14,796 bases of DNA from Zymomonas sp. (GTDB lineage Bacteria; Pseudomonadota; Alphaproteobacteria; Sphingomonadales; Sphingomonadaceae), in contig NZ_JAIWON010000072.1 in NCBI RefSeq assembly GCF_020216885.1, positions 1 through 14,796 of the forward strand, in the 5' to 3' direction. Numbering within the stretch: the stretch's first letter is position 1; each line of letters starts with the position of its first letter. Below, piece by piece: positions 1 through 14,796 of the stretch. The notes under the pieces were generated by a model that worked only from the letters and a program-made list of their open reading frames with translations, ran no database searches and was not told where the DNA came from. The translations under genes and the position numbers were made by a program.

Positions 1-859
1 GATCTTCGTCCCATCCCGTTAGTGGCATTGCATCGGTTATCAGCATTAAATGCTCTGCGCCCTTTGCCTTATAGGCAAGGCGGATATTCGATGGATGGAC
101 ATGTTCCCCGTCAGCAATAATGCCCGCATAAGCGTTATCACTATCTAACGCTGCCCCGACAACGGCAGGCGAACGGCTGGTATTTTGAGACATGGCATTA
201 AATAAATGGGTAAAGCCGCTTGCCCCTGCCTTGAGCGCATTCATGGCAGTTTCGTAATCACTATCCGAATGACCAATAGAGACAATAACGCCAGCCTTTG
301 TCAGTCGAGTAATAAGTGAGGCATCCATTGTTTCCGGTGCCAAGGTCAGGAGAATTCGGAAATTATCTTTATTCTTTCGAGCGCTGTTGCATAAAAAGTT
401 GATATCATCTTCACTGATCGGACGAATTTTGCTGGCCGCGTGGATGCCACGCCGCGTCATTGCAATAAAAGGCCCTTCGATATGTAGGCCGACAATGCCT
501 TTAATACCCGCCTGAATAGCGTCTTCAATGGCATGAACGGCTGTTTTGATAGCTGTCGTCTCTTCACTGACCAAAGTCGGTAGTAAAGATGTGGTGCCAA
601 AAGCACGATGCGCCGCCGCAATTTTTGAAATGGCGTTTACATCAGGATGATCGTTAAAAAGGTAACTACCACCACCGTTAACCTGAATATCAATAAAACC
701 TGCCAAAAGGATCTGATGATGCAGGTCTATGGTTGGGATATCGCAAGGCAGCGGTTGATCGGTAATGGCTTTTATCACGCCATTTTCGATTAACAGGCTG
801 TGATCGGTCAATATCGTATCTGGTGTAACGATTTGTCCATGCGTAAAGGCAAGCTGCAT
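1..859 (-). CDS. nagA: N-acetylglucosamine-6-phosphate deacetylase, C-terminus cut by window edge
   Basis: Amidohydrolase-superfamily enzyme that removes the acetyl group from GlcNAc-6-phosphate in the cytoplasm, for amino-sugar catabolism and cell-wall recycling. Translating the minus strand from ATG at 859 gives 286 codons running off the left edge; the family is usually about 380 residues, so roughly the last quarter is missing. NagA motifs appear in order: DIQVNGGG near residue 55, GLHIEGPF near 125 (metal-binding Glu), GHSDSDYE near 195, HLFNAM near 218, DGEHVHP near 250 and the catalytic TDAMPLTG near 276. The N-terminus MQLAFTHGQIVTPD fits the short beta-sandwich strand that opens these proteins. 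It lies 75 bp downstream of the tetR stop on the same strand with no clear promoter between, so read-through from tetR is possible. No nagB is visible in the window. The family call is secure; the start is likely. Confidence 0.93.
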   Translation of the reverse strand, partial: MQLAFTHGQIVTPDTILTDHSLLIENGVIKAITDQPLPCDIPTIDLHHQILLAGFIDIQVNGGGSYLFNDHPDVNAISKIAAAHRAFGTTSLLPTLVSEETTAIKTAVHAIEDAIQAGIKGIVGLHIEGPFIAMTRRGIHAASKIRPISEDDINFLCNSARKNKDNFRILLTLAPETMDASLITRLTKAGVIVSIGHSDSDYETAMNALKAGASGFTHLFNAMSQNTSRSPAVVGAALDSDNAYAGIIADGEHVHPSNIRLAYKAKGAEHLMLITDAMPLTGWDED

Positions 860-934
860 CAAAACTTCTTTCGGGAGAATGAGAAAATCAGAGACAGGCG
901 TTAGATTTTTGAAAAGACCAAAAAGAGAAGCGAA

Positions 935-1555
935 TTAAGGCGCGTAAGCCTTGAGAAAAAGGGAAACAATCTGACTGACATCAGCCTCTATTTCTTCTTT
1001 ATTCGCGAGATTTTCTTGGGGGATATTATAAAGTCTGGAAGCGATACTGCGAGCGCTTAGAGAGTGAAGAAAGAAAGAGGCTGCATATTCAGGGTCTTCC
1101 TGACGGATCTGTTTCTTTTCCATGGCTGAAGCAAAATAGGATGCCAATTTCCGCATGGCGGTTTGGGGCCCTGCTTCGTAAAAAATTTTTCCGACTTCAG
1201 GGAAACGCCAACATTCAACAATCGCTAGTCGAAACAAGGCTCTTTTATCAGATTCGATAATATTCCGACAGAAATGACAGCCATATTGGTTCAGCGTAAT
1301 TTCAATTTCAGCTTGTGGATTAAGCAAATCTGTATAAACTTTGTGAAATTCACCCGCCAGCCGTTCAATCACAGCCCGAAACAAGGCTTCTTTTGAAGGA
1401 AAATGAGACCATAACGTCCCCTTTGATCCTCCGACTTTGGCCGCAATCGCTGACATGGAAGTTTCGGCATATCCTTTTTCAAGGAAAAAGCGTTTTGCCT
1501 CTTCCAGAATAGCTTCTCGGCGATCAATACCTTTATGCTGCTTTGATATATTCAT
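935..1555 (-). CDS. TetR/AcrR-family repressor of the adjacent efflux operon
   Basis: DNA-binding transcriptional repressor. The N-terminal helix-turn-helix is clear: it starts at RREAILEEAKRFFLEKGY, continues with TSMSAIAAKVGGSKGTLWSHF and ends at SKEALF. The C-terminal half resembles the AefR-type TetR ligand domain (for example LAIVECWRFPEVGKIFYEAG). I chose ATG at 1555 (206 residues, normal for TetR). An upstream in-frame ATG at 1603 would add 16 residues, but it lies upstream of the best promoter match (TTGTCA, 17 bp, TAGAGT); ATG 1564 is the other alternative. A GGAA stretch precedes ATG 1555. The gene is divergent from the NodT-EmrA-EmrB genes, the classic layout of a local repressor whose ligand is a pump substrate. 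Operator-like palindromes lie over its own -10 and in the leader of the efflux operon, suggesting autoregulation. A CxxC (GCHFC) in the ligand domain has no known meaning. Confidence 0.88.
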   Translation of the reverse strand: MNISKQHKGIDRREAILEEAKRFFLEKGYAETSMSAIAAKVGGSKGTLWSHFPSKEALFRAVIERLAGEFHKVYTDLLNPQAEIEITLNQYGCHFCRNIIESDKRALFRLAIVECWRFPEVGKIFYEAGPQTAMRKLASYFASAMEKKQIRQEDPEYAASFFLHSLSARSIASRLYNIPQENLANKEEIEADVSQIVSLFLKAYAP

Positions 1556-1573
1556 AATTTCCATAATGTAAAA

Positions 1574-1588
1574 TACTCTATGGTACGG
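1574..1588. promoter_or_regulatory. Candidate TetR operator 1
   Basis: TACTCTATGGTACGG matches the sequence at 1634-1648 at 12 of 15 positions and is an imperfect dyad (TAC...GTA). It covers the putative tetR -10. This suggests a site for repressor binding and autoregulation; it is inferred from symmetry and duplication only. Confidence 0.5.
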
Positions 1589-1603
1589 TTTTTCCCTTGA
1601 CAA
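1575..1603 (-). promoter_or_regulatory. Putative tetR promoter
   Basis: On the minus strand, -35 TTGTCA (1603-1598) and -10 TAGAGT (1580-1575) are separated by exactly 17 bp. Transcription would start near 1568, just upstream of ATG 1564/1555. The -10 lies inside the operator-like sequence at 1574-1585. The plus strand carries a perfect TTGACA at 1597-1602 over the same bases, but I find no good -10 for it at 16-18 bp, so the efflux operon's own promoter remains unplaced. Confidence 0.45.
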
Positions 1604-1632
1604 AAACCACCTTCGCGCACAAGAAAAAAGTT

Positions 1633-1648
1633 GTACTATCTAGTACGG
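1633..1648. promoter_or_regulatory. Candidate TetR operator 2
   Basis: GTACTATCTAGTAC (1633-1646) is a 14-bp dyad: GTACTA and TAGTAC arms around a TC centre. It is followed by GG, as in operator 1, which lies exactly 60 bp upstream. It sits just before the ribosome binding site and start of the outer-membrane lipoprotein gene, where a bound repressor would block transcription of the efflux operon. Confidence 0.55.
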
Positions 1649-1656
1649 AAGAATTT

Positions 1657-3090
1657 ATGCATCTTAAACGATCACTCATTACCAGTATTTCTGTAGCAGC
1701 GCTATTGCTGACAGGATGTGCCTCAATTCCCAAATTGGGAAAAGCGCCAAAAGTAAAAGACGTGCATGATTATGCAACGGCGCAATCCCTTGCCGGTAAT
1801 GGTTCCGCTTGGCCTGGTGAAGGTTGGTGGAAGTCTTATGGTGATCCCCAGCTTGACCAATTGATGACCGAGGCTTTGGCAAAAGCGCCGGATATGGCGA
1901 TTGCCAAGGCGCGTATCCTATCGGCTGCCGGTAGTAAACAAGTAGCCGGTGCGGGATTACTACCTTCGGTGAATGGGTTTGTCGGAACGGGTGCCGGTCA
2001 TTTAATGCGGGATCAGGAAATCCGGCAAGTGACGGGTCGGAATGATGAGTTTAAAGATTGGGGTGATGGCGGATCATCATTCCTGACTATTCGTTATAAT
2101 ATTGATATCTGGGGTGGATATCGCGCCAAATTGGCGGCGGCTACCTCGGAAGCAAAAGCGGCCGTCGTGGATTCTCATGAAGCCGCTTTGACCCTGACGA
2201 CCAGTATTGCGGCAGCCTATGCCAATCTGTCTCGTTTATTTGAAGAACAGCAGGTTCTAAATAGGACATTGGCTGTCCGTAACCATGTATTGGAATTGAC
2301 CCAGCAAAGATTGGGGCATGGATTGGACAATGATTCAACCATGCAAGATGCCAGCGCCAGACTGGCGAATGCCCAAGCAGATCTGACAGCTAATCAGGAA
2401 TCCATTGATCTGGTTCGGCATCAGATTGCCGCTTTGATGGGGGCAGGACCTGATCGCGGTATGGCGATCACGCGGCCTCAATCTGTGAAATTGCGGGCAG
2501 TCGGTTTGCCAGATAATGCGGCTTTGAATCTTTTGGGGCGGCGGCCTGATATTGTGGCCGCTCGTTTGACAGCGGAAGCCGCCGGTTATCGCGTCAAAGT
2601 GGCAAAAACCCAATTTTACCCCAATATCAGCCTAAACGGTATTGTCGGTTATCAGACGCGCGCTTTGGAGCATATGGCTACCCATGGTCTGGCTTTGGGG
2701 GCAGCGAGTGCGGCGCTTAATCTGCCTATTTTCAGAGGTGGCAGCCTATCCGGTCAATATCGTGAGGCATGGGCTACCTATCAGGAAGCCGTTGCCAGCT
2801 ATGACAAAACCTTGTCACAGGCGTTGCAGCAGGTCGCTGATGCGGCAACCAGTCAAAAACAACTTAATCTTCAGCTTGACCAAACAGTTCAAGCCCTTAA
2901 TCATGCCGAACTTTCCTATAATGTGTTAGCAAATCGCTATAAAAGCGGTCTCGTGACCTATATCGAGGTTTTGCAGGGGGAGGAAAATGTCCTGACCCTT
3001 AGAAAAGCAGTCGCCGATCTTCGGGCGAGAGCCTTCCAGCTTGATGTCTCTTTGATTCAGGCTTTGGGTGGCGGTTTTACGGCAGCATAA
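1657..3090 (+). CDS. NodT/OprM-family outer-membrane efflux lipoprotein
   Basis: Outer-membrane channel of a tripartite drug efflux system (TolC/OprM class, two OEP repeats). Starting at ATG 1657 gives 477 residues with a lipoprotein signal: KR at 4-5, a hydrophobic core, and lipobox L-T-G-C with the lipidated Cys at residue 21. This start has GGAAGAA a few bases upstream. An in-frame TTG at 1597 would add 20 residues before the signal peptide and is rejected for that reason. Family signatures include WWKSYGDPQLDQLM near residue 57, LGRRPDIVAARL near 292 followed by VAKTQFYPNISLNG, and LANRYKSGLVTYIEVLQ near the C-terminus, which repeats the tip-helix pattern. The length is typical. The EmrA-type gene starts 21 bp downstream, so the two are surely co-transcribed. 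Substrates cannot be told from sequence. Confidence 0.92.
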   Translation: MHLKRSLITSISVAALLLTGCASIPKLGKAPKVKDVHDYATAQSLAGNGSAWPGEGWWKSYGDPQLDQLMTEALAKAPDMAIAKARILSAAGSKQVAGAGLLPSVNGFVGTGAGHLMRDQEIRQVTGRNDEFKDWGDGGSSFLTIRYNIDIWGGYRAKLAAATSEAKAAVVDSHEAALTLTTSIAAAYANLSRLFEEQQVLNRTLAVRNHVLELTQQRLGHGLDNDSTMQDASARLANAQADLTANQESIDLVRHQIAALMGAGPDRGMAITRPQSVKLRAVGLPDNAALNLLGRRPDIVAARLTAEAAGYRVKVAKTQFYPNISLNGIVGYQTRALEHMATHGLALGAASAALNLPIFRGGSLSGQYREAWATYQEAVASYDKTLSQALQQVADAATSQKQLNLQLDQTVQALNHAELSYNVLANRYKSGLVTYIEVLQGEENVLTLRKAVADLRARAFQLDVSLIQALGGGFTAA

Positions 3091-3111
3091 CTTTTTTTGT
3101 GAGTGACAACT

Positions 3112-4317
3112 ATGGCAGATAACAATACCACGGTTCAGGCCGCCGCAGATCAGGGTGACAGCAAGCTGTCATTGGATAAACAGGACGCTACCCAGAATAC
3201 CGTTTCCGAGCCGGACGAACAGAATAAATCCAATAGAAAACGTTGGTTGCGCTATCTGGCGATAGTGCTGGTCGTCATCGCGATTATTTACGGCATTTGG
3301 TATTTCTTGGTCGGTTCCCGTCATGCGTCAACTGACAACGCTTATACTAATGCGGAATCCGCGCAGGTCATGGCCTTGGTCTCGGGACCCGTCGCGCAGG
3401 TCTTTGTTTCAGACACCCAACAGGTTCAGAAGGGAGATTTACTGGTTCGTCTTAATCCCGATGATCAGAAGATTTCTTTAGCAAAGGCTGAAGCTGATTT
3501 TGCCGCTGCAGAAAGAAAATTCGGACAAACTTCAGCCAGCAGTGATGCCTTGTCCCAAGCCATTGTTGCGCAGCAGGCTAATGTCGAACAGGCCGAAGCC
3601 AATTACCTGTCCGCGCAGTCAACCTATCATCGGGCAGAAACCGACTATAACCGTCGTCGTTCATTAGTTGAATCCGGTGCCGTGTCACGGGATGAAATGA
3701 CGGCGGTTTCCAATGCTTTGGAAAAAGCACGGGCAGCTCTGTTACAAAGTCATGCTGCTGTCGATCAGGCACATGCCGCAAAAGAAGAAGCAATCGGTAA
3801 TTTTGAAGCTAATCAGGCTTTGATTAAAAATACAACGGTCAGTACCAATCCGCAGGTTCGTGCTGCAAAAGCCGCCTTGGATCAGGCGCGTTTAGACAAT
3901 AGTCGTCTGGAAATTCGCGCACCCATGGCGGGTGTTGTGACCCAAAGACAGGTTCAGGTCGGCCAGCGCGTCAATGTCGGCACTCCGATTGCCACTATTG
4001 TGCCTATCGAACAGATATATGTCGATGCCAATTTCAAAGAAACCCAGCTTGGCAAGGTCAAGGTTGGTCAGACGGCGACGGTCAAATCCGATCTTTATGG
4101 TGGTGATGTGGTTTATCACGGTCATGTCGTCGGTTTTTCAGGCGGCACCGGATCTGCCTTTTCTCTCATTCCTGCCCAGAATGCGACGGGTAACTGGATC
4201 AAAGTCGTCCAGCGTTTGCCTGTCCGTATTGCCCTTGATCCCAAGGAATTGAGAGCCCATCCGTTGCGCGTGGGTTTGTCGATGGAGGCTGACATTGACC
4301 TTTCTTCAAAAAATTAG
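3112..4317 (+). CDS. emrA: EmrA/HlyD-type membrane fusion protein
   Basis: Periplasmic adaptor linking the inner-membrane MFS pump to the outer-membrane channel. From ATG 3112 it has 401 residues: a charged, Gln/Asp-rich cytoplasmic tail (about 1-44), one membrane helix (WLRYLAIVLVVIAIIYGIWY, about 45-64), the EmrA-like opening STDNAYTNAESAQV, a lipoyl half (VSGPVAQVFV...VQKGDLLVRLNPDD), a long alpha-helical hairpin (about 115-245, rich in Ala/Gln/Glu), a second lipoyl half (LEIRAPMAGVVTQRQVQVGQRV) and a beta-barrel (FKETQLGKVKVGQTATVKSD). A GTG at 3103 would add three residues; ATG is preferred, though its ribosome site (GAGTGA) is weak. It lies between the outer-membrane lipoprotein gene and the emrB-type gene, which overlaps its 3' end by 23 nt. 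The symbol reflects family resemblance, not proven substrate range. Confidence 0.92.
   Translation: MADNNTTVQAAADQGDSKLSLDKQDATQNTVSEPDEQNKSNRKRWLRYLAIVLVVIAIIYGIWYFLVGSRHASTDNAYTNAESAQVMALVSGPVAQVFVSDTQQVQKGDLLVRLNPDDQKISLAKAEADFAAAERKFGQTSASSDALSQAIVAQQANVEQAEANYLSAQSTYHRAETDYNRRRSLVESGAVSRDEMTAVSNALEKARAALLQSHAAVDQAHAAKEEAIGNFEANQALIKNTTVSTNPQVRAAKAALDQARLDNSRLEIRAPMAGVVTQRQVQVGQRVNVGTPIATIVPIEQIYVDANFKETQLGKVKVGQTATVKSDLYGGDVVYHGHVVGFSGGTGSAFSLIPAQNATGNWIKVVQRLPVRIALDPKELRAHPLRVGLSMEADIDLSSKN
4284..4288 (+). promoter_or_regulatory. Ribosome binding site fixing the emrB TTG start
   Basis: GGAGG lies inside the emrA reading frame, 6 nt before TTG 4295. It is among the best Shine-Dalgarno matches in the window and is the reason for accepting a non-ATG start that overlaps emrA. 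Confidence 0.7.
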
Positions 4318-5896
4318 TCATCGCTTTCATGACTTTTTTGCAGGTTTTTCCTTTGGCCCTCCCGATGGTCAAAGGCAGCCTGCCTCGGCGGAAGGTCTGC
4401 TGTCTGGTTCTAAACAGGCTATTGCTTGTATCATTCTGGCTTTGACCAATTTCATGGTTGTGCTCGATACAACCATTGCCAATGTTTCTGTGCCTCATAT
4501 CGCGGGAGACCTTGCGGTTTCCAACTCCCAAGGCACTTGGGTTATCACGTCTTATGCTGTGGCAGAAGCTATCTGTGTGCCATTGACGGGATGGCTTTCC
4601 CGTCGTTTCGGCACCGTGCTTTTGTTCTTTATTTCAATTATCGGTTTTACCAGCTTCTCTTGCCTGTGCGGTTTTTCACATAGCCTGATGGTTTTGTTGA
4701 TTTTCCGTTGTTTGCAGGGATTTTTCGGTGGCCCATTGATGCCGATTACTCAAACGCTTTTGCTGCGTGTGTTCAGAAAAGAGCAGCATGCGCAGGCGAT
4801 GGGTATTTGGGCAATGACGACCATTACTGCGCCTATTATTGGTCCTATTATGGGTGGGTGGTTGAGTGACAACTGGTCGTGGCCGTGGATTTTCTATATC
4901 AATATTCCTATCGGGATTATCTGTGCCATGGGTGTTTTTGCCCTGTTACGGAGTGTCGAAACCCGCACCCTGAAAGAATATATTGATAAGGGCGGCCTCA
5001 CTATTATGGTTATCTGGATTGCTTGTCTCCAGATCGCCCTTGATCTTGGTCATGATCATGACTGGTTGAGCAGTCGGATGATTGTTACGCTACTTATTCT
5101 GGCAGCAATCGGCTTCGTTGTCTTTGTGATTTGGGAGTTAACCGAAAAACAACCGATCGTTGATCTTAAGATCTTTCGGCATCGCGGCTTTACGATCAGT
5201 GTTCTGTCCCTATCCTTTAGTTTCGGGGTGTTTTTCGCTTCGGCTGTGATTATTCCGCAATGGCTTCAACGTGTTATGGGCTATACCGCAACTGATTCCG
5301 GTCTTGTGACCGCTATGTCCGGTATTTTGGCAGTGTTTTTCTCTCCCATCGTTGCGAAGTTAAGCGGGAAGGTCGATGCCCGTATTCTTGTTAGTTTCGG
5401 TATTTTATGGTTGGGAGGATGCACCGCGCTTCGCACTTTTTGGGATACCAATAGCAGCTATTGGATATTTGCTGTTCCCCAATTTTTGCAAGGGATCGGG
5501 ATGCCTTTCTTCTTTGTTCCTTTAACGACCCTTGCTTTATCTTCGGTGTTACCAGAGGAAACGACTTCTGCTGCCGGTCTTATGAACTTTTTGAGAACTT
5601 TGGCGGGCGCTATCGGAACCTCTTGGTCAACCACGGTTTGGGAAGATTATGCTCGTAAGATGCATAATGAACTGGCCAATATCATTCCGACCCCGAATGC
5701 CATCTTGCCCGTTCTGCAAATGGGTGGGCAAAATACTCTGAAAGCCAGAGCCTTTTTCGATGCTTTGGTGGATACGCAGTCTTACGCGCTATCAACGACC
5801 CATATTTTCTTTATCAGCACGATGGTTTTCGTTGTGGCTTCTTCGGTGATCTGGTTGGCACCAGCGCCCAAGAAAAAGCAAGAAAAGCAGGGATAA
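4295..5896 (+). CDS. emrB: EmrB/QacA-type MFS multidrug transporter (DHA2, 14 helices)
   Basis: Inner-membrane proton-drug antiporter, 533 residues, matching the 14-helix DHA2 family. Visible signatures are helix 1 with LDTTIANVSVPHIAGDL, the loop GWLSRRFG, helix 5 motif C (GPIMGGWLSDNWSWPWIF followed by YINIPIG), and LPEETTSAAGLMNFLRTLAGAIGTS in a late helix. A hydrophilic N-terminal tail of about 38 residues precedes helix 1. The start is TTG at 4295, supported by a strong ribosome site GGAGG at 4284-4288 with 6 nt spacing. There is no in-frame ATG before helix 1. The gene overlaps emrA by 23 nt, so translation is likely coupled. A perfect 11-bp hairpin follows the stop. With the adaptor and outer-membrane channel it should form a complete tripartite exporter. 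Substrate is unknown. Confidence 0.93.
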   Translation: MTFLQKISHRFHDFFAGFSFGPPDGQRQPASAEGLLSGSKQAIACIILALTNFMVVLDTTIANVSVPHIAGDLAVSNSQGTWVITSYAVAEAICVPLTGWLSRRFGTVLLFFISIIGFTSFSCLCGFSHSLMVLLIFRCLQGFFGGPLMPITQTLLLRVFRKEQHAQAMGIWAMTTITAPIIGPIMGGWLSDNWSWPWIFYINIPIGIICAMGVFALLRSVETRTLKEYIDKGGLTIMVIWIACLQIALDLGHDHDWLSSRMIVTLLILAAIGFVVFVIWELTEKQPIVDLKIFRHRGFTISVLSLSFSFGVFFASAVIIPQWLQRVMGYTATDSGLVTAMSGILAVFFSPIVAKLSGKVDARILVSFGILWLGGCTALRTFWDTNSSYWIFAVPQFLQGIGMPFFFVPLTTLALSSVLPEETTSAAGLMNFLRTLAGAIGTSWSTTVWEDYARKMHNELANIIPTPNAILPVLQMGGQNTLKARAFFDALVDTQSYALSTTHIFFISTMVFVVASSVIWLAPAPKKKQEKQG

Positions 5897-5913
5897 CAGT
5901 CTTCCCGAAGATG

Positions 5914-5944
5914 CCTGCCTTCGTATAGAAGAAACGAAGGCAGG
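5914..5944 (+). terminator. Perfect 11-bp hairpin between emrB and the CNT gene
   Basis: CCTGCCTTCGT (5914-5924) pairs perfectly with ACGAAGGCAGG (5934-5944) around a 9-nt loop, 17 nt after the emrB stop. No U-tract follows on either strand, so it is not a canonical intrinsic terminator. It may be a weak terminator, an mRNA-stabilising 3' stem, or a structure that hides the ribosome site of the next gene, since the TTG at 5948 lies only three bases downstream. Confidence 0.5.
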
Positions 5945-5947
5945 TAA

Positions 5948-7186
5948 TTGAAAGGGGTAGGGGCTATTTTTACAGAACATCTAACGGGCATGATGGGAGC
6001 ATTATGCCTTATTGCGGTTGCTTTTGGCTTGTCGTCGAACCGCCGAAAAATTAAAATACGGCAGGTTTTTGGTGCTTTTTTAACGCAAATTATCCTTGCC
6101 ATTCTTATTCTTTATGTCCCTTTTGGGCAAAATATGATGGCGGCGATTGCCCGCTTTGTGAATAATTTTATTGGATATGCGTCAGCCGGTTCGGCTTTTC
6201 TTTTTGGCCCTTTGGCGACATCGCCTTTGGGCCATAATTTTGCGATGCAGGCTTTGCCGGTTCTGATCTTTTTTTCTTCCCTGATTTCTATTTTTTATCA
6301 CCTTGGCTTGATGCAATTTTTGGTGCGTTGGATCGGAGGGGCGATTGAGAAATTGACCCAGATCGGGCGGGTTGAAGCCATCAATTGTGCAACCAATATT
6401 TTCGTTGGGCAAAGTGAATCCCCCTTGGTCGTGGGACCCTATTTGGCTGAATTGCCGCCCGAAAGGCTGTTTACCATTATGGTTACAGGGATGAGTGGGA
6501 TTGCTGGCACCTTGTTGGCAGCTTATGCCCAGATGGGTATTCGGTTAGATTATCTGTTAACCGCCAACCTGATGGCAGCGCCAGCCGGTATCATGATGGC
6601 CAAAATTATGATGCCCGATTTGGCAGAGGCCAGTGATTTTGAAGAAAAAATTGCGCCTCATCAGAAAAAATCAGCCAATATCATTATGGCAGCCGCCGAA
6701 GGCGCCCAACAAGGGGTCAAGCTGGCTGTGGCTGTCGGGGCAATGGTAATGGCTTTTGTTGCCTTGATGGCTATGGCCAATGGAATCTGCCAGATGGTTG
6801 GAGGCTGGTTTGGTTGGCCTGACGTTACTTTTCAGAGTTTGATCGGCACAGCTTTCCGTCCTGTTATGTGGTTGATGGGCGTGCCTTGGACAGAGTCAGG
6901 CGTGGCCGGTAGTTTGATGGGTGAGAAAGTTATTCTGAACGAGTTTATTGCCTATATCCATTTTGGCCAGATAACGTCCGATTTGTCTCCTCATAGCATG
7001 GCTATTGTGACTTTTGCGCTGTGTGGTTTCGCTAATATTTCATCGATTGCCATTCAAATGGCCGTGATAGGCGGCATCGTGCCGCAGCAACGACCTGTAA
7101 TTGCCCGATTGGGCGGAAAGGCGTTGGTCGCCGCCATTCTTGCCAATTTAATGAGTGCCACCTTAGCCGGTTTATTGGTGTCCTGA
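5948..7186 (+). CDS. nupC: Concentrative nucleoside transporter (CNT/NupC family)
   Basis: Inner-membrane cation-coupled importer of nucleosides, 412 residues as drawn, the usual length for bacterial CNTs. Family signatures are visible: SSNRRKIKIRQV after the first helix, GQSESPLVV in hairpin loop 1 (about 154-162), NEFIAY (about 331-336) and CGFANISSIAIQ in hairpin loop 2 (about 359-370). These positions carry the substrate-binding Gln/Glu and Asn/Ser of CNT structures such as the Vibrio cholerae protein. The start is uncertain: TTG 5948 has only a poor ribosome site that falls within the upstream hairpin, while ATG 5990 (residue 15) would begin closer to the first helix. It opens a run of purine genes but is separated from the AzgA gene by about 214 bp. 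Whether it prefers purine or pyrimidine nucleosides cannot be read from these motifs alone; its context favours purines. Confidence 0.9.
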   Translation: MKGVGAIFTEHLTGMMGALCLIAVAFGLSSNRRKIKIRQVFGAFLTQIILAILILYVPFGQNMMAAIARFVNNFIGYASAGSAFLFGPLATSPLGHNFAMQALPVLIFFSSLISIFYHLGLMQFLVRWIGGAIEKLTQIGRVEAINCATNIFVGQSESPLVVGPYLAELPPERLFTIMVTGMSGIAGTLLAAYAQMGIRLDYLLTANLMAAPAGIMMAKIMMPDLAEASDFEEKIAPHQKKSANIIMAAAEGAQQGVKLAVAVGAMVMAFVALMAMANGICQMVGGWFGWPDVTFQSLIGTAFRPVMWLMGVPWTESGVAGSLMGEKVILNEFIAYIHFGQITSDLSPHSMAIVTFALCGFANISSIAIQMAVIGGIVPQQRPVIARLGGKALVAAILANLMSATLAGLLVS

Positions 7187-7400
7187 ATTATGTCAAAAAC
7201 GATTGCAAAATATCAGTTTAATCCACAATTATTGGAAGAAAAATATTTATTTTTCAATATGTTATGTAGCGATATATTAAAAGATATTGTCTCTTTTTTT
7301 AATCCTTTACGTTCCCTTTTGAAAAATTTTGGATCAAGGCGACAAAGTCCTGTCAGTTCTTGGCAATATAATGTAACGAATGGCGGAAATGGGGGATATC
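7187..7400 (+). other. AT-rich intergenic region between the CNT and AzgA genes
   Basis: About 214 bp, clearly more AT-rich than its neighbours, with runs of A and T. It holds a perfect TATAAT at 7367-7372 (listed separately). A possible small frame (ATG 7190 to stop 7417, 75 codons) crosses it and runs into the AzgA gene, but it has no ribosome site and no recognisable domain. I see no strong hairpin. Confidence 0.5.
7367..7372 (+). promoter_or_regulatory. Putative -10 box for the azgA-NUP-ade operon
   Basis: A perfect TATAAT lies 28 bp before ATG 7401 in an AT-rich spacer, which would put the transcription start near 7379 and leave a leader of about 20 nt containing the ribosome site. No good -35 is seen at 16-18 bp, so an activator or a relaxed promoter would be needed. 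Confidence 0.4.
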
Positions 7401-8726
7401 ATGCAACAATGGCTTGACCGCTATTTCAGGCTGACAGAACGCGGGACAACTATTCGCACCGAAGTCATGGCAGGTTTAACGACCTTTTTAACCATGGCTT
7501 ATATTATTGTGGTCAATCCGACCCTTTTGGCACAGGCGGGTATGCCTTACGCTGCTGTTGCGGCTGCAACTTGTTTTGCGGCCGGATTTGCCAGTCTTTT
7601 GATGGGTTTTTATGCCAATACACCTTTGGCCTTGGCACCCGGATTGGGGTTGAATGCCTATTTCGCCTTTACCGTTGTTGGGCAGATGGGAATTCCTTGG
7701 ACACAAGCCTTGGGCTGCGTTTTCCTGTCAGGGGCGATTTTCCTGTTTCTGACTTTTGCCGGTATTCGGCAAATGATTATCAAGGCCATTCCTCATTCTC
7801 TTTTTTCCGCGACCGCAGGTGGTATCGGGCTTTTTATTGCTTTTATTGGTCTTAGAAATGCCGGCATTATTCAGGCGAGCGCCTCAAGTTTGGTAACTTT
7901 GGGATCGCTGGGAAATACGCAAACGCTGTTAGCCATAGGAGGTCTTCTTCTGACCGCTATTTTAATGGCTTATCGGGTGAGGGGGGCGATCCTGATCGGT
8001 ATTTTGGCCGTGACTTTCATCGGCATCTTATCCGGTTTTGTCCATTTTTCTGGCAGTGATTATAGCCCCGCTATGTTGGGTAAAACGGCCTTTGCCCTTG
8101 ATATCAAAGGCGCTTTATTTCGGGGTCATAATTTCGGTTCGGCCATTATCGAGATTTTGTTCATCCTGTTATTTGTTGATCTGTTTGATAATATCGGCAC
8201 CTTGGTTGCCGTGACGAAACGCGCCGGTTTGATGGATAAAGACGGCAACATTCCTAATTTGAACCGGATGCTTTTAACCGATGCGATTGCGACTTTGGTT
8301 GGTGCTTTATCCGGCACCTCTACCGTCACTTCTTATATTGAAAGTGCCGCAGGGGTGCAGGCCGGAGGTCGAAGCGGTTTGACCGCGGTTATCGTCGGGT
8401 TATTGTTTCTGTGTATGTTATGGGTTGCGCCCTATGCCCAGATTATTCCGATTGGGGCAACGGCACCCGCTCTTATTCTGGTGGGGTCGCTGATGATGGC
8501 TCCATTGATTGAAATTGACTGGAATAATATCGAAGAAGCCTTGCCCTCCTTTTTGACCTTGATTGTGATCCCTTTGAGTTTTTCCATCGCGAATGGTCTG
8601 GCTTTTGGCATTATTGCCTATACGGCTTTGAAAATAGCCAAGGGTAAGCTCAAAAAAGACGATTGGTTGCTTTGTTTATTGGCCGCTTTGTTTATTGGCC
8701 GCTTTGTTTATCTGGCGAGGGGATAA
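7401..8726 (+). CDS. AzgA-type purine (adenine/guanine/hypoxanthine) permease
   Basis: Inner-membrane proton-coupled purine-base importer of the AzgA branch of the nucleobase/ascorbate permease superfamily. From ATG 7401 it has 441 residues with about 12-14 hydrophobic segments. Typical features are the amphipathic start (QQWLDRYFRLTERGTTIRTE), VMAGLTTFLTMAYIIVVNP in helix 1, ANTPLALAPGLGLNAYFAF in the unwound helix 3, FVDLFDNIGTLVAV and the signature GTSTVTSYIESAAGVQAGGR. The start is chosen because GGGGGA (7391-7396) precedes it closely; ATG 7380 would add seven residues without a good site. The stop is 4 bp before the NUP gene, implying tight co-transcription. A 16-bp tandem repeat covers its last codons. 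Exact base specificity is not readable; the adjacent adenine-type deaminase suggests adenine is one substrate. Confidence 0.9.
   Translation: MQQWLDRYFRLTERGTTIRTEVMAGLTTFLTMAYIIVVNPTLLAQAGMPYAAVAAATCFAAGFASLLMGFYANTPLALAPGLGLNAYFAFTVVGQMGIPWTQALGCVFLSGAIFLFLTFAGIRQMIIKAIPHSLFSATAGGIGLFIAFIGLRNAGIIQASASSLVTLGSLGNTQTLLAIGGLLLTAILMAYRVRGAILIGILAVTFIGILSGFVHFSGSDYSPAMLGKTAFALDIKGALFRGHNFGSAIIEILFILLFVDLFDNIGTLVAVTKRAGLMDKDGNIPNLNRMLLTDAIATLVGALSGTSTVTSYIESAAGVQAGGRSGLTAVIVGLLFLCMLWVAPYAQIIPIGATAPALILVGSLMMAPLIEIDWNNIEEALPSFLTLIVIPLSFSIANGLAFGIIAYTALKIAKGKLKKDDWLLCLLAALFIGRFVYLARG
8671..8711 (+). repeat. 16-bp tandem repeat at the 3' end of the AzgA gene
   Basis: TTTGTTTATTGGCCGC occurs twice in exact tandem (8671-8686 and 8687-8702), followed by nine more bases of a third copy (8703-8711). 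Because 16 is not a multiple of three, each copy is read in a different frame, yet the product remains a plausible hydrophobic C-terminus (LLCLLAALFIGRFVYLARG). Loss or gain of one unit would shift the last codons and the spacing to the NUP gene. Confidence 0.85.
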
Positions 8727-8730
8727 CGGG

Positions 8731-9852
8731 ATGAAAATCAGCCGATATAAAAAATTAGCTGCCCTTTTAGGCGGGCTGGCTTTGTTCTATGCGCCCGCTA
8801 TGGCTGCTGGAAAAAGCGGTGGTGCGGTCGTCCCGAAAAAGGTGATTTCTGAAAAGAAAGCCTGTGCCTGCTCGCAGACGAAAATTCCGGTGCGGGTTGT
8901 TGTTCTGACGGCTTTTGAAATCGGGGAAGACCAAGGCGACAAAGCGGGTGAATTTCAGGCTTGGGCAAATATCTTGCCCGAAAAAATTGATTTTCCTGCC
9001 GCGCCTAGAAATCTGCGTTTTGACCCCAAGACAGGTGTTCTGGCGATCAATACCGGCATGGGAACGGGGCAGGCCGCGACTTCGGTTATGGCTTTGGGAC
9101 ATGATGATCGTTTTGATTTATCGCATGCTTATTGGTTAGTAGCAGCGATTGCGGGCGTTAATCCCAATGCGTCAAGCATTGGATCAGCGGCATGGATTGG
9201 TAACGTCGTTGATAGTGATTTTGGCTATTCGATTGACCCTAGAGAAATGCCGTCTGATTGGTCAACCGGATCAATCCCTTGGGATAAAAAGCGGCCTTAT
9301 GAAACCCCGCGTCCCGATAATTCACATAATCTTTTTGCCTTGAATAAAGGCTTACAAAATTGGGCATATCAGCAAACGGCACAGATAACTTTGCCGGATA
9401 ATCCGACCTTGCAAAAAATAAGGTCAGGCTATCCCGCCTATAAAACTGCGCTGCGCCCGCCTGAAATCGTCAAAGGTGACGAGGCAACAGGGCAGGCTTT
9501 TTGGCATGGCGTTTTATCCAATAGCCATATCGAAAAATGGGTGTCTTATTGGACAGATGGCAGCGGACATTTTGTGATGACCGGCATGGAGGATAGCGGT
9601 ATTGCAAGAGCCATTGCTGTTTTATCTAAAGAAGGCCGTGCCGATTATAATCGGGTCATGATGTTACGAACCGGTGCCAATTATACATTCCAGCCAAGTG
9701 GCAGTAATGCTGCCGCCAGTTTAGCGCATGAAGGTAGTGAGCTTTCTGGCATGCAATCGGCTTTGGATGCCGCCTTTACCGTTGGTGACAAGGTTGTGAG
9801 CGAGATATCATCCCATTGGGATCGATATCGTGATCATATACCCGCCTCTTGA
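8731..9852 (+). CDS. Secreted NUP-family protein ('purine nucleoside permease'), probable nucleoside-cleaving enzyme
   Basis: 373 residues from ATG 8731, with ribosome site GAGGGGAT about 7 nt upstream. A Sec signal peptide is clear: basic MKISRYKK, a hydrophobic core, and A-M-A before likely cleavage after residue 25. The mature part has no membrane segment. It belongs to the NUP family, named after a fungal purine nucleoside permease (Candida albicans). However, the layout resembles a nucleoside-phosphorylase fold: VVLTAFEIG near 57-65, INTGMGTGQAATSVMAL (106-122), an AAIAGVNP strand-turn (138-145) followed by Asp161 and Asp163, and GMEDSGIARAI (285-295), which parallels the Met-Glu ribose-binding helix of phosphorylases and nucleosidases. 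I infer a periplasmic enzyme that releases the purine base, not a transporter. It lies 4 bp after the AzgA gene and 36 bp before the adenine-deaminase-like gene, so its product could feed both. Confidence 0.85.
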   Translation: MKISRYKKLAALLGGLALFYAPAMAAGKSGGAVVPKKVISEKKACACSQTKIPVRVVVLTAFEIGEDQGDKAGEFQAWANILPEKIDFPAAPRNLRFDPKTGVLAINTGMGTGQAATSVMALGHDDRFDLSHAYWLVAAIAGVNPNASSIGSAAWIGNVVDSDFGYSIDPREMPSDWSTGSIPWDKKRPYETPRPDNSHNLFALNKGLQNWAYQQTAQITLPDNPTLQKIRSGYPAYKTALRPPEIVKGDEATGQAFWHGVLSNSHIEKWVSYWTDGSGHFVMTGMEDSGIARAIAVLSKEGRADYNRVMMLRTGANYTFQPSGSNAAASLAHEGSELSGMQSALDAAFTVGDKVVSEISSHWDRYRDHIPAS

Positions 9853-9888
9853 GGGTTGACGATTTTCTATTAAATTTGAGTATGTTAC

Positions 9889-10902
9889 ATGAATAATCTT
9901 ATACAATTTATAGCGGCTTTGCCGAAGGCAGAGTTGCATCTGCATATCGAGGGCAGTCTTGAGCCTGAATTGATGTTTGAATTGGCCAAGCGGAATAAGG
10001 TTACCTTACCTTTTCCTGATGTTGAATCCGTGAAAGCTGCCTATAATTTCAACAACTTACAAGAGTTTCTTGATATTTATTATCAAGGAACCAATGTTTT
10101 AAAAACTGAAGAAGATTTCTGTGATTTGGCGATGGCCTATTTCTATCGGGCGCATCGCGATAATGTCCTTCATAGTGAAATCTTTTTTGATCCCCAGAGC
10201 CATACAGAACGCGGCATTCCTTTTAATGTCATCATGAATGGTTTGCTGGCCGCGATTGCCAAGGCCGAAGCCGAATTAGGCATGTCGGTTCAGTTGATTA
10301 TGTGTTTTCTTCGTCATCTGGATGAGGAATCTGCCTTTGCGACTTTGCGGATGGCTGAACCCTTCCTCGACAAGATTACCGGTGTCGGCCTTGATTCTTC
10401 TGAAGTCGGCAATCCGCCTTCAAAATTCCGTCATGTTTTTGCTGAAGCCCGTCGAAAAGGATTGAAGCTGGTCGCCCATGCTGGTGAAGAAGGCGATGCG
10501 TCCTATATTAAAGAGGCTTTGGACATCCTGAATATTGATCGGATCGATCATGGCAACCGGATTACTGAAGATCGTTTGCTGATGACGCGGGCTGCGCGTT
10601 CGGCCATTGCCTTGACGATTTGTCCGCTTTCAAATCAGAAATTACAGGTTGTGCCAGATCTTCGCAATCATCCCTTACCCTATCTGTTGCGCCAAGGGCT
10701 TCGAGTTACTATAAACTCGGACGATCCTGCCTATTTTGGAGGATATGTAAATGATAATTACAAAGCCTTGGCTGAATATTGCGGCCTGAAAGCGGCTGAT
10801 TTCGTTGAAATTGCCAGAAACAGTTTTCTCGGATCATTTCTTCCGGATCAAACCGTCGCAGCTTATCTGGATGTTCTGGATAAATATGTAGAGTCTTTCT
10901 AA
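9889..10902 (+). CDS. Adenine deaminase of the adenosine-deaminase fold (Pa0148/Aah1 type)
   Basis: Zinc amidohydrolase of 337 residues that hydrolyses the 6-amino group of a purine in the cytoplasm. Metal and catalytic residues are all present: HLHIEGS with His17 and His19, HAGEEG with His197 and Glu200, DHG with His221, and NSDDPAYFGGY with Asp278 and Asp279. Databases may call it adenosine deaminase (add), but stretches such as EGSLEPELMFELAKRN, FNNLQEFLDIYYQG, IFFDPQSHTERGIPF, VGLDSSEVGNPPSKF and SDDPAYFGGY are those of adenine deaminases (bacterial Pa0148, yeast Aah1) as I recall them. The expected reaction is therefore adenine to hypoxanthine. The ribosome site is weak (GAG about 8 nt before ATG). 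It is the third gene of the AzgA-NUP-deaminase unit, consistent with a base-salvage role. Family certain; substrate likely but not proven. Confidence 0.9.
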   Translation: MNNLIQFIAALPKAELHLHIEGSLEPELMFELAKRNKVTLPFPDVESVKAAYNFNNLQEFLDIYYQGTNVLKTEEDFCDLAMAYFYRAHRDNVLHSEIFFDPQSHTERGIPFNVIMNGLLAAIAKAEAELGMSVQLIMCFLRHLDEESAFATLRMAEPFLDKITGVGLDSSEVGNPPSKFRHVFAEARRKGLKLVAHAGEEGDASYIKEALDILNIDRIDHGNRITEDRLLMTRAARSAIALTICPLSNQKLQVVPDLRNHPLPYLLRQGLRVTINSDDPAYFGGYVNDNYKALAEYCGLKAADFVEIARNSFLGSFLPDQTVAAYLDVLDKYVESF

Positions 10903-10929
10903 GACGCTGCCTGTTTATAAAACGGCGTC
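10903..10929 (+). terminator. Imperfect hairpin directly after the adenine deaminase gene
   Basis: GAC, GCC and GTTT (10903-10916, with small bulges) can pair with the continuous arm AAACGGCGTC (10920-10929) around a three-base loop. It begins at the base after the stop codon. No T-run follows, so termination is uncertain; it may mark the end of the purine operon. Confidence 0.35.
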
Positions 10930-10933
10930 CGAT

Positions 10934-10939
10934 TTGACA
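10934..10939 (+). promoter_or_regulatory. Possible -35 element for the hpn operon
   Basis: A perfect TTGACA lies 51 bp before the hpnI start in the only gap (88 bp) between the purine and hopanoid genes. The best -10-like hexamer downstream (CATAAG at 10960-10965) is 20 bp away, which is wide, so this is a weak prediction. Confidence 0.3.
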
Positions 10940-10990
10940 CAGATATAAGGCCAGAAAGGCATAAGAACGGTTCATGATCAGGATTAAACA

Positions 10991-12145
10991 ATGATAACCA
11001 TCCTGCATGTCCTTTTGACAATTATAGGCAGTCTGGCATTGCTTATGGCGTTGGCTGGTGTGGGCTATACCATTCTGGCCGCGATTGTCGTTTTGTGGTG
11101 GCAACAAAAAGAGGTAATCAACAGAAAAGAATGGCCTTCGGTTTCGTTGGTCAAGCCTTTGCATGGTGACGAACCCGCCCTTACAGAAAATCTTTTGACC
11201 TTTTTAAAGCAGGATTATCCGGCAGAATATGAAATGCTCTGCGGTATCCAGAATCCTGATGATCCAGCAGGTGCGACCGTAAGAGAGATTGCCTCTACCA
11301 GTAATCAGACGGCCGTCCGTTTGATTGTGGATAGCAAAAGTCACGGCACCAATGCCAAGATTTCCAATCTGATCAATATTACAGCGCATATCGGCCATGA
11401 TATTTTGATTATCAGTGATAGCGATATGAGCGTGCCTGAAAGCTATATTCGTCAGGTCGTTCATGCACTTGAAAGAGAAGATGTCGGGGCGGTGACCTGC
11501 CTTTATCACGGAAGAGGGGATAATGGTTATTGGTCGCGGTTGTCTGCGGCGAATATTGACTATAACTTTTTACCGTCGGTTATGGTAGGCGTTGCTCTTA
11601 GGAAAGCTAACCCTTGTATGGGGTCAACGATTGCCATAAAACGCGAAACGTTGGAAGCGATTGGCGGATTTAACAGCCTCGCCAATATTTTGGCAGATGA
11701 TTATGTTTTGGGTGCAAAAGTTAGGGCGTTGGGATTAAGAGTTGAAGTAATACCGGTTATTTTGACGCATAGCTGCACAGAAACAAGTTTTTCATCCCTT
11801 GTTCGGCATGAATTGCGGTGGTCAGCGACAATCAGGGATATCAATCCGGTCGGCTTTTTCGGAAGTGCGGTCACTTATCCCGTGCCTTTGGCCTTTATCG
11901 GACTGATGTTGACAAATGGGTGGGTAAGCTGGCCGGTTTTTTGCCTTGCTTTGGCTTCTCGTTGGTTATTGGGGTGGCGTATAAATAGGGTGACTGGAGT
12001 TTCACGAATGGACGCGTTATTACAGCTGCCTTTTCGCGATTTACTCTCTTTCGGAATATTTTTATCGACCTTCTTTATCTCTTCTGTTGATTGGCAGGGA
12101 ATGGAACTTACGTTGCATTCTGACGGGCGCATTTCGCGCAAATAG
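10991..12145 (+). CDS. hpnI: Hopanoid glycosyltransferase HpnI (ceramide-glucosyltransferase-like)
   Basis: Membrane-anchored family-2/21-type glycosyltransferase, 384 residues. Known HpnI proteins attach N-acetylglucosamine to bacteriohopanetetrol, the first step toward BHT-glucosamine and the BHT cyclitol ether. The sequence shows an N-terminal membrane segment (about 5-37), then PSVSLVKPLHGDEPALTENL opening the catalytic domain, the metal-binding DSD at 143-145, the ADD motif at 235-237, and the HELRW motif (273-277) that corresponds to (Q/R)xxRW of ceramide glucosyltransferases. Further hydrophobic segments lie at about 290-310, 312-330 and near 350-365. The GT-A core therefore faces the cytoplasm between membrane anchors. 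The stop overlaps the ribosome site of hpnJ, and hpnJ and hpnK follow at once, confirming the hopanoid assignment over a generic glycosyltransferase. Confidence 0.93.
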   Translation: MITILHVLLTIIGSLALLMALAGVGYTILAAIVVLWWQQKEVINRKEWPSVSLVKPLHGDEPALTENLLTFLKQDYPAEYEMLCGIQNPDDPAGATVREIASTSNQTAVRLIVDSKSHGTNAKISNLINITAHIGHDILIISDSDMSVPESYIRQVVHALEREDVGAVTCLYHGRGDNGYWSRLSAANIDYNFLPSVMVGVALRKANPCMGSTIAIKRETLEAIGGFNSLANILADDYVLGAKVRALGLRVEVIPVILTHSCTETSFSSLVRHELRWSATIRDINPVGFFGSAVTYPVPLAFIGLMLTNGWVSWPVFCLALASRWLLGWRINRVTGVSRMDALLQLPFRDLLSFGIFLSTFFISSVDWQGMELTLHSDGRISRK

Positions 12146-12159
12146 GAGTCCTTTTTATA

Positions 12160-13590
12160 ATGATGCGTACGCTTTTTCTGCAGGCACCGTCTTTTGACGG
12201 TTTTGATGGCGGGGCTGGTTCTCGTTATCAGGCTCGCCGTGAAATCAAGAGCTTCTGGTATCCGACCTGGCTCGCACAGCCTGCAGCTCTTATTAAAGAT
12301 TCAAAGCTGATTGATGCCCCGCCGCATGGCACGAAATTACCGGAAGTTTTGGCTATTGCGCCAGATTATGATTTGGCGATTTTGCATACCTCGGTTCCTA
12401 GCTTTGCGTCCGATGTCAAAACCGCAGCGGCTCTTAAAAAAGTCAATCCGGCGATGAAAATCGGTTTCATCGGGGCAAAAGTCGCGGTCGAGGCTGATAA
12501 AAGCCTGAAAGATGCCAAGGGTATTGTTGACTTTGTGGCGCGTAACGAATTTGATTTCACGATCAAAGATGTCGCCGATGGCAAAGATTGGTCAGAAATT
12601 CTTGGCTTGAGCTATATCAATGATAAAGGCGAAATCGTCCATAATGCGGATCGGCCTTTATTGCAGAATATGGATGAGCTGCCCTTTGTGACTCCGATTT
12701 ACAAGCGCGATCTTGAAATCGAAAAATATTTCATCGGCTATCTGAAACATCCTTATATCTCGATCTATACGGGACGGGGTTGTAAGTCGCATTGTAGTTT
12801 TTGTCTGTGGCCGCAAACCGTTGGTGGGCATAAATACAGAACCCGCAGCGTCGAGCATGTGATTGAAGAAATCAAATATGCGCTAAAGACTTTCCCGCAG
12901 GTAAAAGAATTCTTCTTTGATGACGATACCTTTACCGATGATCGTCCCCGCGCCGAAGCGATTGCCCGCGAATTGGGTAAATTAGGGGTTACGTGGTCTT
13001 GTAACGCCAAAGCCAATGTGCCTTATGAAACCTTGAAGGTTCTGAAAGATAACGGGCTTCGTCTGTTATTGGTCGGTTATGAATCCGGTAACCAGCAGAT
13101 CTTGCATAATATCAAAAAAGGGATGCGGGTCGAAACAGCCGAGAAATTTACCCGTGATTGTCATGATCTGGGTATTGCTATCCACGGCACTTTCATTTTG
13201 GGTTTGCCGGGTGAAACGCGCGAAACGATCGAACAGACCATTAAATGGGCTTGTGAGATCAATCCGCATACCATTCAGGTTTCTTTGGCTGCCCCTTATC
13301 CGGGAACCTTACTTTATAAACAGGCTATCGAAAATGGCTGGCTTGACCAGTCACATGCTGAATTAGTGGATGAACATGGTGTCCAGATAGCACCTTTGAG
13401 CTATCCGCATTTAAGTCATGAAGAAATCTTCCGTTCAGTTGAAGTTTTCTATAAGCGCTTTTATTTCCGCCCCGGTAAAGTCTTCTCAATCGTCAACGAA
13501 ATGGTTCGTGACTTTGACATGATGAAACGCCGGTTGCGCGAAGGTGTTGAGTTCTTCCAGTTCCTGCGGGAACGGAAAGAGGCTTGCTAA
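12160..13590 (+). CDS. hpnJ: Hopanoid radical SAM protein HpnJ (BHT cyclitol ether formation)
   Basis: 476-residue radical S-adenosylmethionine enzyme with an N-terminal cobalamin-binding-like region (about 1-150). The iron-sulfur motif CxxxCxxC is intact at Cys208, Cys212 and Cys215 within GRGCKSHCSFCLWPQ. It is followed by FFFDDDTFTDDRPRA (about 267-281) and the C-terminal barrel strands LLLVGYESG and FILGLPGETRE. In known systems HpnJ contracts the glucosamine ring of BHT-glucosamine to give the BHT cyclitol ether. AGGAG at 12144-12148 overlaps the hpnI stop and lies 11 nt from ATG 12160; a second ATG follows immediately, so the start could be one codon later. hpnK begins 15 bp after the stop. 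N-terminal cobalamin binding is inferred from the fold class; the usual DxHxxG is not evident. Confidence 0.94.
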   Translation: MMRTLFLQAPSFDGFDGGAGSRYQARREIKSFWYPTWLAQPAALIKDSKLIDAPPHGTKLPEVLAIAPDYDLAILHTSVPSFASDVKTAAALKKVNPAMKIGFIGAKVAVEADKSLKDAKGIVDFVARNEFDFTIKDVADGKDWSEILGLSYINDKGEIVHNADRPLLQNMDELPFVTPIYKRDLEIEKYFIGYLKHPYISIYTGRGCKSHCSFCLWPQTVGGHKYRTRSVEHVIEEIKYALKTFPQVKEFFFDDDTFTDDRPRAEAIARELGKLGVTWSCNAKANVPYETLKVLKDNGLRLLLVGYESGNQQILHNIKKGMRVETAEKFTRDCHDLGIAIHGTFILGLPGETRETIEQTIKWACEINPHTIQVSLAAPYPGTLLYKQAIENGWLDQSHAELVDEHGVQIAPLSYPHLSHEEIFRSVEVFYKRFYFRPGKVFSIVNEMVRDFDMMKRRLREGVEFFQFLRERKEAC

Positions 13591-13605
13591 AAACGGAGTA
13601 AAGAA

Positions 13606-14451
13606 GTGAAAAAGCTGATCGTCACCGCTGATGATTTCGGGGCTGCGACCGTTGTTAATGAGGCAGTGGAAAAAGCGCATATCGATGGCGTGTTGACGGC
13701 GGCTAGTCTGATGGTGGGCGCTCCGGCGGCCTTTGATGCGGTCGAACGCGCCAGAAGACTCCCTAAATTAGGGGTTGGTCTTCATTTGGTTCTGGTCGAA
13801 GGTCGTCCGGTTCTGCCGCCTGATGAAATACCTGATCTCGTTGATCGCGATGGTATGTTTCGCCGCAATATGGTGAGAGCCGGTGTCGATATCTTTTTTC
13901 GTCCCGGTGTTCGGCGGCAATTGGTGCGCGAAATTAACGCCCAATTCAGCGCGTTTGCCGCTACCGGTCTGAAACTTGATCATGTCAATGCCCATAAGCA
14001 TTTTCACCTTCATCCAACGATTTCCAATCTCATTTTGGCAATTGGTCGTCGTTATGGTTTGAAGGCGATGCGCGCCCCTGTCGAACCGATCAATATTTTG
14101 GCCGAGATTGAACCGGTGACGCGTCATCTGCCTGACTATGTCGCGATGCCTTGGGCGTATGGTATTCGGAAAAGATCGGTTCATGCCGGTCTTCTTGTGC
14201 CTGATCAGACTTTTGGCATTGCATGGACGGGACATATGACCCCGCACAGAATGTTAGGCGTGATCGAGCATTTGCCGGAAGGCTTGAGTGAAATTTATGT
14301 CCATCCTGCGGTCAGTGATGAATATGAAGGTCATGCTCAAGGCTATGAATCCATTGAAGAATGGCATGCTTTGACCGATGAAGCCGTCAAAAAAGCACTT
14401 AAAGAACGCCAGATTGAGCTGGGTAATTTTTCCGATTTTCTCGGGAAATAA
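13606..14451 (+). CDS. hpnK: Hopanoid deacetylase HpnK (YdjC/ChbG family)
   Basis: 281-residue metal-dependent carbohydrate deacetylase of the YdjC/ChbG fold. Known HpnK removes the acetyl group from BHT-N-acetylglucosamine, giving BHT-glucosamine for HpnJ. Visible active-site elements are TADDFG (7-12, metal-binding Asp), GVGLHLVLVEGRP (His60), and DHVNAHKHFHLHP (125-137) with the His pair typical of the family. EIYVHPAVSDEYEG (about 229-242) provides the C-terminal conserved HP. The start is GTG at 13606, supported by GGAG at 13595-13598 with 7 nt spacing. It completes the hpnI-J-K set in one transcription unit. There is no signal peptide, so it should act at the cytoplasmic face like HpnI. 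The order I-J-K differs from the order of reactions (I, K, J). Confidence 0.94.
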   Translation: MKKLIVTADDFGAATVVNEAVEKAHIDGVLTAASLMVGAPAAFDAVERARRLPKLGVGLHLVLVEGRPVLPPDEIPDLVDRDGMFRRNMVRAGVDIFFRPGVRRQLVREINAQFSAFAATGLKLDHVNAHKHFHLHPTISNLILAIGRRYGLKAMRAPVEPINILAEIEPVTRHLPDYVAMPWAYGIRKRSVHAGLLVPDQTFGIAWTGHMTPHRMLGVIEHLPEGLSEIYVHPAVSDEYEGHAQGYESIEEWHALTDEAVKKALKERQIELGNFSDFLGK

Positions 14452-14516
14452 CGGCTTTAAGCATCATTATTAAACGCTAAAAGACCTGCTTTTCTGTTAA
14501 TCAAACTTGCGATTCT

Positions 14517-14570
14517 GGCCTCTCTATGGAATAGACCCTTTCTATCCTTTTCGGGTTTGTCCCATAGGCC
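14517..14570 (+). other. Potential structured segment in the hpnK-hpnL gap
   Basis: Nested complementary arms are visible: GGCC (14517-14520) and TATGG upstream match CCATA and GGCC at 14562-14570. Inside them ATAGA and TCTAT pair across a short CCCTT loop. The outer helix has a TCTC bulge. It could be a leader or attenuator for hpnL or chance pairing; no known RNA family is recognised. The rest of the 169-bp gap (14452-14620) shows no gene. Confidence 0.3.
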
Positions 14571-14595
14571 GCTTAAAATCTTGGGCGGCTCTTTT
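14568..14595 (+). terminator. Possible short terminator after hpnK
   Basis: GCCGC (14568-14572) pairs with GCGGC (14585-14589) around a 12-nt loop, followed directly by TCTTTT. The stem is only 5 bp, and it shares bases with the alternative 14517-14570 pairing. If real it would separate hpnK from the membrane-protein gene at 14621. Confidence 0.3.
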
Positions 14596-14620
14596 CATAA
14601 GAGCGTGGCTACTTCACTTC

Positions 14621-14712
14621 ATGACCGGTAAAAATAAAGATAAACCATGGAGCCGCATTATCATTCTGGCAGCAAGTCTGACCGGTTTTATTCTGGCTCT
14701 TTATTTTATGCA
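14621..14712 (+). CDS. hpnL: N-terminus of a membrane protein, probably HpnL, truncated at a chimeric join
   Basis: ATG 14621 opens MTGKNKDKPWSR followed by a hydrophobic helix (IIILAASLTGFILALYFM, about residues 13-30). Its position just after hpnK and the short basic tail plus helix fit HpnL, a lysylphosphatidylglycerol-synthetase-like membrane protein found with hopanoid genes and thought to be a transporter. Only about 30 codons look native. After roughly 14711 the base composition jumps to very high GC and the frame continues with Ala/Gly/Leu-rich codons that are better explained by an antisense rpoZ fragment. I therefore end the native part near 14712, with the exact junction uncertain by about 15 bp. 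No strong ribosome site is visible. Identification is by context only. Confidence 0.5.
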
Positions 14713-14725
14713 CCGGGCCGCGGCC

Positions 14726-14796
14726 TCAGGCCTGCCCGCGGTTGAGCACCTCCAGGCCGACCTTGCCGGCGGCGATCTCGCGCAGGGCGATGACGG
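14726..14796 (-). CDS. rpoZ: C-terminal fragment of RNA polymerase omega subunit from a high-GC bacterium
   Basis: On the minus strand the last bases of the window read V-I-A-L-R-E-I-A-A-G-K followed by VGLEVLNRGQA and a TGA stop at 14728-14726. ALREIAAGK preceded by V-(V/I) is the conserved C-terminal core of the omega subunit, which helps assemble and stabilise RNA polymerase, and the stop a short way after it fits its usual end. Only 23 full codons are visible. GC content here is about 77%, far above the rest of the window, and neither orientation nor gene context fits the hopanoid operon. It is most likely foreign DNA joined by artefact. The version with AAGKV recalls delta-proteobacterial or related omega proteins more than alphaproteobacterial ones; that lineage guess is weak. 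Confidence 0.6.
   Translation of the reverse strand, partial: VIALREIAAGKVGLEVLNRGQA

Follow-up and report, generated by a model that had tools for sequence, protein, structure and literature searches.

We are highly confident that the last 80 bases of the DNA analysed here (14,796 nucleotides, hereafter the window) are an artefact, namely a chimeric read or a misassembly at the end of a contig. The opening of a Zymomonas hpnL gene is joined at one exact base to the closing part of a betaproteobacterial rpoZ gene, and the remainder of hpnL lies elsewhere in the same assembly. The joint would have been made in vitro or in silico, and the sequenced sample was presumably a mixed community. Since the tail would have been stuck on by an error of library or assembly, the apparent broken or fused gene at this contig end is almost certainly not real biology.

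Features of the window

1..14716, no strand: ordinary Zymomonas sequence; 8574-14716 is 85% identical in DNA to Zymomonas mobilis AN0101, and the comparison with relatives covers 8574 onward
14507..14794, plus strand: open frame in register with hpnL, misleading in that an annotator might call it an hpnL fusion
14621..14716, plus strand: genuine Zymomonas hpnL, first 32 codons (from relatives' DNA, the frame and the HpnL model)
14716..14717, no strand: chimeric junction, where similarity to genome G001 and to AN0101/G002 stops alike at 14716
14717..14796, minus strand: foreign tail, 80 bases, 76% GC, of a Rhodocyclaceae-type betaproteobacterium; genome G976 matches best (99%, tail bases 12-80)
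14717..14725, minus strand: nine bases downstream of the foreign rpoZ stop, read from the sequence
14726..14728, minus strand: TGA stop of the foreign rpoZ, read from the sequence
14729..14794, minus strand: foreign rpoZ (RNA polymerase omega), last 22 codons; 22/22 residues (Aromatoleum, Azoarcus, Rhodocyclaceae bacteria), 67/68 bases (G976)

The hpnL gene on both sides of the break

Genes hpnI, hpnJ and hpnK (NCBIfam names) lie in the right part of the window, followed by the start of hpnL; this part is collinear with AN0101, the best named relative found (95% identity of the hpnK protein). The intact HpnL of AN0101 has 329 amino acids (the preliminary description expected a real hpnL to go on for about 300 residues), and the window holds 32 codons of the gene. 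The hpnL frame is uninterrupted in AN0101 and in G001. Up to the junction, AN0101 is identical at 89 of 96 bases (14621-14716) and G001 at 97% of the DNA over 14500-14716. The assignment to hpnL goes through the AN0101 copy, to which this gene start is homologous and on which the HpnL model TIGR03476 was run; the cut-off is passed with E=2.6e-108.

The window departs from G001 and AN0101 at the identical base, after 14716. In the alignment proposed beforehand, both relatives continue hpnL normally at the point where the window turns foreign. The boundary had been placed at about 14710, which is close, the exact position being 14716/14717. A match to G002 ends there as well (base 1087596 of the first contig, as in AN0101), but G002 is very probably AN0101 and not a third witness, so that the independent Zymomonas witnesses aligned up to the junction are two. 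With G003, a more distant member of the same genus (69%), the match stops five bases before the junction. A Zymomonas hpnL containing the foreign stretch had been named as the finding that would overturn the idea of a chimera. No such gene was found in the three other Zymomonas genomes compared, where the matches end at query bases 217, 217 and 212 of 297.

The later part of hpnL is found on contig C103, at 11853-12673 on the minus strand, up to that contig's very end (12673). Placed on G001 or AN0101, the gap between the contig of the window (C79) and C103 measures 238 reference bases, and a search of the assembly for them at E<=0.001 gave no match. The foreign tail is not present on C103, whose end lies those 238 reference bases past the junction. 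Given this continuation without the foreign piece, the organism very probably has an intact hpnL, which only the assembly has split.

The foreign tail and its donor

The tail has a GC content of 76.25%; among the other 80-base windows (starts 1 to 14636) the maximum is 66% and the mean 47%, with a standard deviation of 6%. Read on the minus strand, it gives VIALREIAAGKVGLEVLNRGQA (22 residues), followed by a TGA stop and then nine bases more. Hence the observation from which this work started, a high-GC tail with an antisense rpoZ end, is confirmed. In a profile search the peptide matched Pfam Rpb6 at E=0.0042, along with two omega models of NCBIfam at E=0.007 and E=0.014; none of the three matches reaches its curated cut-off, which is no surprise for a query of 22 residues. 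Together with its complete identity to the ends of full rpoZ proteins, these matches place it in the omega family (PF01192 / TIGR00690). The GC shift and the omega peptide match are far beyond chance. A comparison of the peptide with solved structures returned no match.

The comparison with other rpoZ genes, also proposed in advance, matches the tail to a betaproteobacterial gene of Rhodocyclaceae type. In a database of 5.8 billion proteins the peptide matched 708; the 120 of these that were listed have E values between 4.9e-5 and 7.9e-5, and all 22 residues agree in 110 of them (100% identity), the other 10 being 95% identical. The named matches among those listed are omega subunits of Aromatoleum, Azoarcus, Thauera, Pseudothauera, Denitromonas, Nitrogeniibacter, Sterolibacterium and Candidatus Desulfobacillus, and the other listed labels read Rhodocyclaceae, Zoogloeaceae, Betaproteobacteria or Pseudomonadota only. 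A phylum-wide peptide search (E<=1) matched 40 of 299 genomes, the window's own included, with none of the others above 79%. At the DNA level, matches were obtained in 198 of 399 genomes of the order of G297 (E<=0.001), in 234 of 395 genomes of the family of G475 (E<=1e-10) and in 12 of 16 genomes of the genus of the best match (E<=1e-15).

That best match, G976, is identical at all but one of the 68 coding bases up to the stop, and it differs from the tail in having a TAG stop and other downstream bases. The name of the donor group rests on identical rpoZ proteins in the compared genomes: the protein of G976 is identical to P0095, labelled Rhodocyclaceae bacterium, that of L130 (family of G976) to a Denitromonas protein, and those of L129 and L138 to proteins labelled Betaproteobacteria bacterium. 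To judge by these matches, the donor would be a relative of the matched Rhodocyclaceae-type genomes, and its exact genome was not found among those searched.

We also considered and rejected a plasmid or phage origin of the tail. Window positions 14600-14796 gave no plasmid match at E 1e-5. With the 80-base tail alone and an E limit of 10, 616 plasmid and 260 phage records matched; among 20 rows of each, the best E was 0.01 for plasmids and 0.2 for phages, and rpoZ did not occur as an annotated feature. The peptide gave two weak matches, both to Neisseria gonorrhoeae records at E=3.

Origin of the joint

In our opinion, the Zymomonas contig would truly end inside hpnL. Chimeric reads, whether one or a few, or a wrong assembly path would then have carried it on into the rpoZ gene, at its 3' end, of a co-sequenced bacterium of Rhodocyclaceae type. 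The two sides do belong to different organisms, Zymomonas to 14716 and the Rhodocyclaceae-type rpoZ beyond, which supports the original proposal that two unrelated genomes have been joined, and the tail sits exactly at the contig end. Certain points stand against an artefact. The 238 gap bases were not found, so C79 and C103 are not joined directly; G976 departs from the tail at the stop and downstream of it; the contamination estimated for the bin is low (0.06%, at a completeness of 94.6%); and the contig ends sampled by GC showed no other foreign tail.

A rival reading is a real insertion, in which a betaproteobacterial fragment would have recombined into hpnL of the strain or of a subpopulation and disrupted this hopanoid gene. 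It is true that the contig reads continuously across the joint and that the region beyond the tail's outer end lies outside the contig. However, a single boundary with host DNA is seen and not two, the hpnL part on C103 is ordinary and collinear with relatives to the contig end, with no foreign DNA there, the tail carries just the end of a housekeeping gene, and the foreign stretch is absent from the other Zymomonas genomes compared (3/3). We therefore regard an insertion as very improbable; the preliminary description had likewise judged a transfer into hpnL the less likely reading, and the lack of a foreign boundary on C103 and of the stretch in the other genomes bears this out. Less credible still, to the point of being negligible, is a native source of the tail such as a rearranged copy of the organism's own rpoZ. 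The Zymomonas genome does possess an rpoZ, on contig C117, but this gene is different from the tail (it reads ...VVALREIADELITPVQLREALL...). It is only 55% identical, over residues 1-55, to a 68-residue betaproteobacterial rpoZ, whereas the tail is 100% identical to the last 22 residues of that protein. Moreover, the tail was seen once in its own genome, at the end of C79 and nowhere else. This comparison and the single occurrence refute a native origin.

If the joint is an artefact, as we believe, it may have arisen in the library, by ligation or template switching (or as a cloning joint), rather than as a path error of the assembler. We give this variant tentative credit at most. Whichever in-vitro step joined the two pieces in a mixed sample, the outcome would look alike. 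The Zymomonas side of the joint carries CCGG, and in 4 of 12 relatives of the donor's genus CCGG lies no more than 25 bases beyond the rpoZ stop, so that a short shared word is possible; such a count, however, is unremarkable for GC-rich DNA.

The contig and its assembly

The window is the complete contig C79 of a Zymomonas assembly of 1,921,851 bases (1.92 Mb) in 184 contigs. In a tally of 63 contigs, from which C103 and C117 were left out, 27 are exactly 10,000 bases long, which makes a mixed-community (metagenome) source likely. Such lengths are what remains when contigs are cut into 10-kb pieces before CONCOCT binning, a practice found in a portion of PMC4897800, a paper that we do not claim as the source of this sample. 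We infer a metagenome whose sample also contained betaproteobacteria. At position 1 the window seems to begin with an artificial 10-kb cut, because a nagA-like frame runs unbroken from C78 (10,000 bases) into C79. The parent contig joined in this way would be 24,796 bases long, and the tail would form its outer end. Within the window, a 16-base unit is present in 2.9 copies at 8669-8716, near the end of the frame 7380-8726.

A scan for other foreign tails covered 62 starts of contigs, of which 25 are cut sites, together with 15 ends; it used GC content alone, so that tails of similar GC would escape. The high-GC filter was passed by five starts: C1, C5 and C22 with short tandem repeats, C8 at a cut site, and C26 as a borderline case. 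In the last 80 bases of the 15 ends the highest GC was 61%, with no second foreign tail. Because of this result the error looks isolated among the ends sampled, as judged by GC.

Several breaks show repeats of their own. A perfect heptamer array of TGCGACC occupies L093 1-66 (start of C1) and L097 1-78 (start of C5), and the two are probably the flanks of one array. It occurs at one place each in G001 (at least 23 units) and G002 (at least 15 units) and was not found in G003; given these unit numbers and this absence, the array resembles a Zymomonas tandem repeat of variable length. Other arrays at breaks are a GGCATCT-type heptamer at the end of C12 (L158) and an octamer, CAGACGGG, at the start of C22 (L167). 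The start of C26 (L171 1-70) is odd and G-rich, with a long G run beside AT-rich sequence.

Consequences for annotation

The relevance of this finding is one of data quality only. With no stop in the tail, the hpnL frame runs on to the contig end and gains 26 spurious residues; the earlier warning that this end would be reported as a false fusion was indeed apt, and the frame risks annotation as a truncated or fused gene. The tail could also be mistaken for a sign of gene transfer or for an additional rpoZ. In practice, the final 80 bases should be trimmed.

Relation to known systems

Compared with hpnL of Zymomonas (TIGR03476), the copy in the window is alike in its first 32 codons and in having hpnI-hpnJ-hpnK ahead of it, but it is cut at 14716, with its later part on C103. 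The tail is like rpoZ of the Rhodocyclaceae/Zoogloeaceae type (Aromatoleum, Azoarcus, Thauera, Denitromonas) in that its last 22 residues are identical, with up to 67/68 bases shared; it differs from a betaproteobacterial rpoZ in being confined to the final 22 codons with their stop and nine bases beyond. As a whole the case, known here from assembled sequence, resembles the chimeric contig ends of short-read and metagenome assemblies, from which nothing notable sets it apart: a short foreign terminus of deviating GC is seen once, and the native gene continues on another contig.
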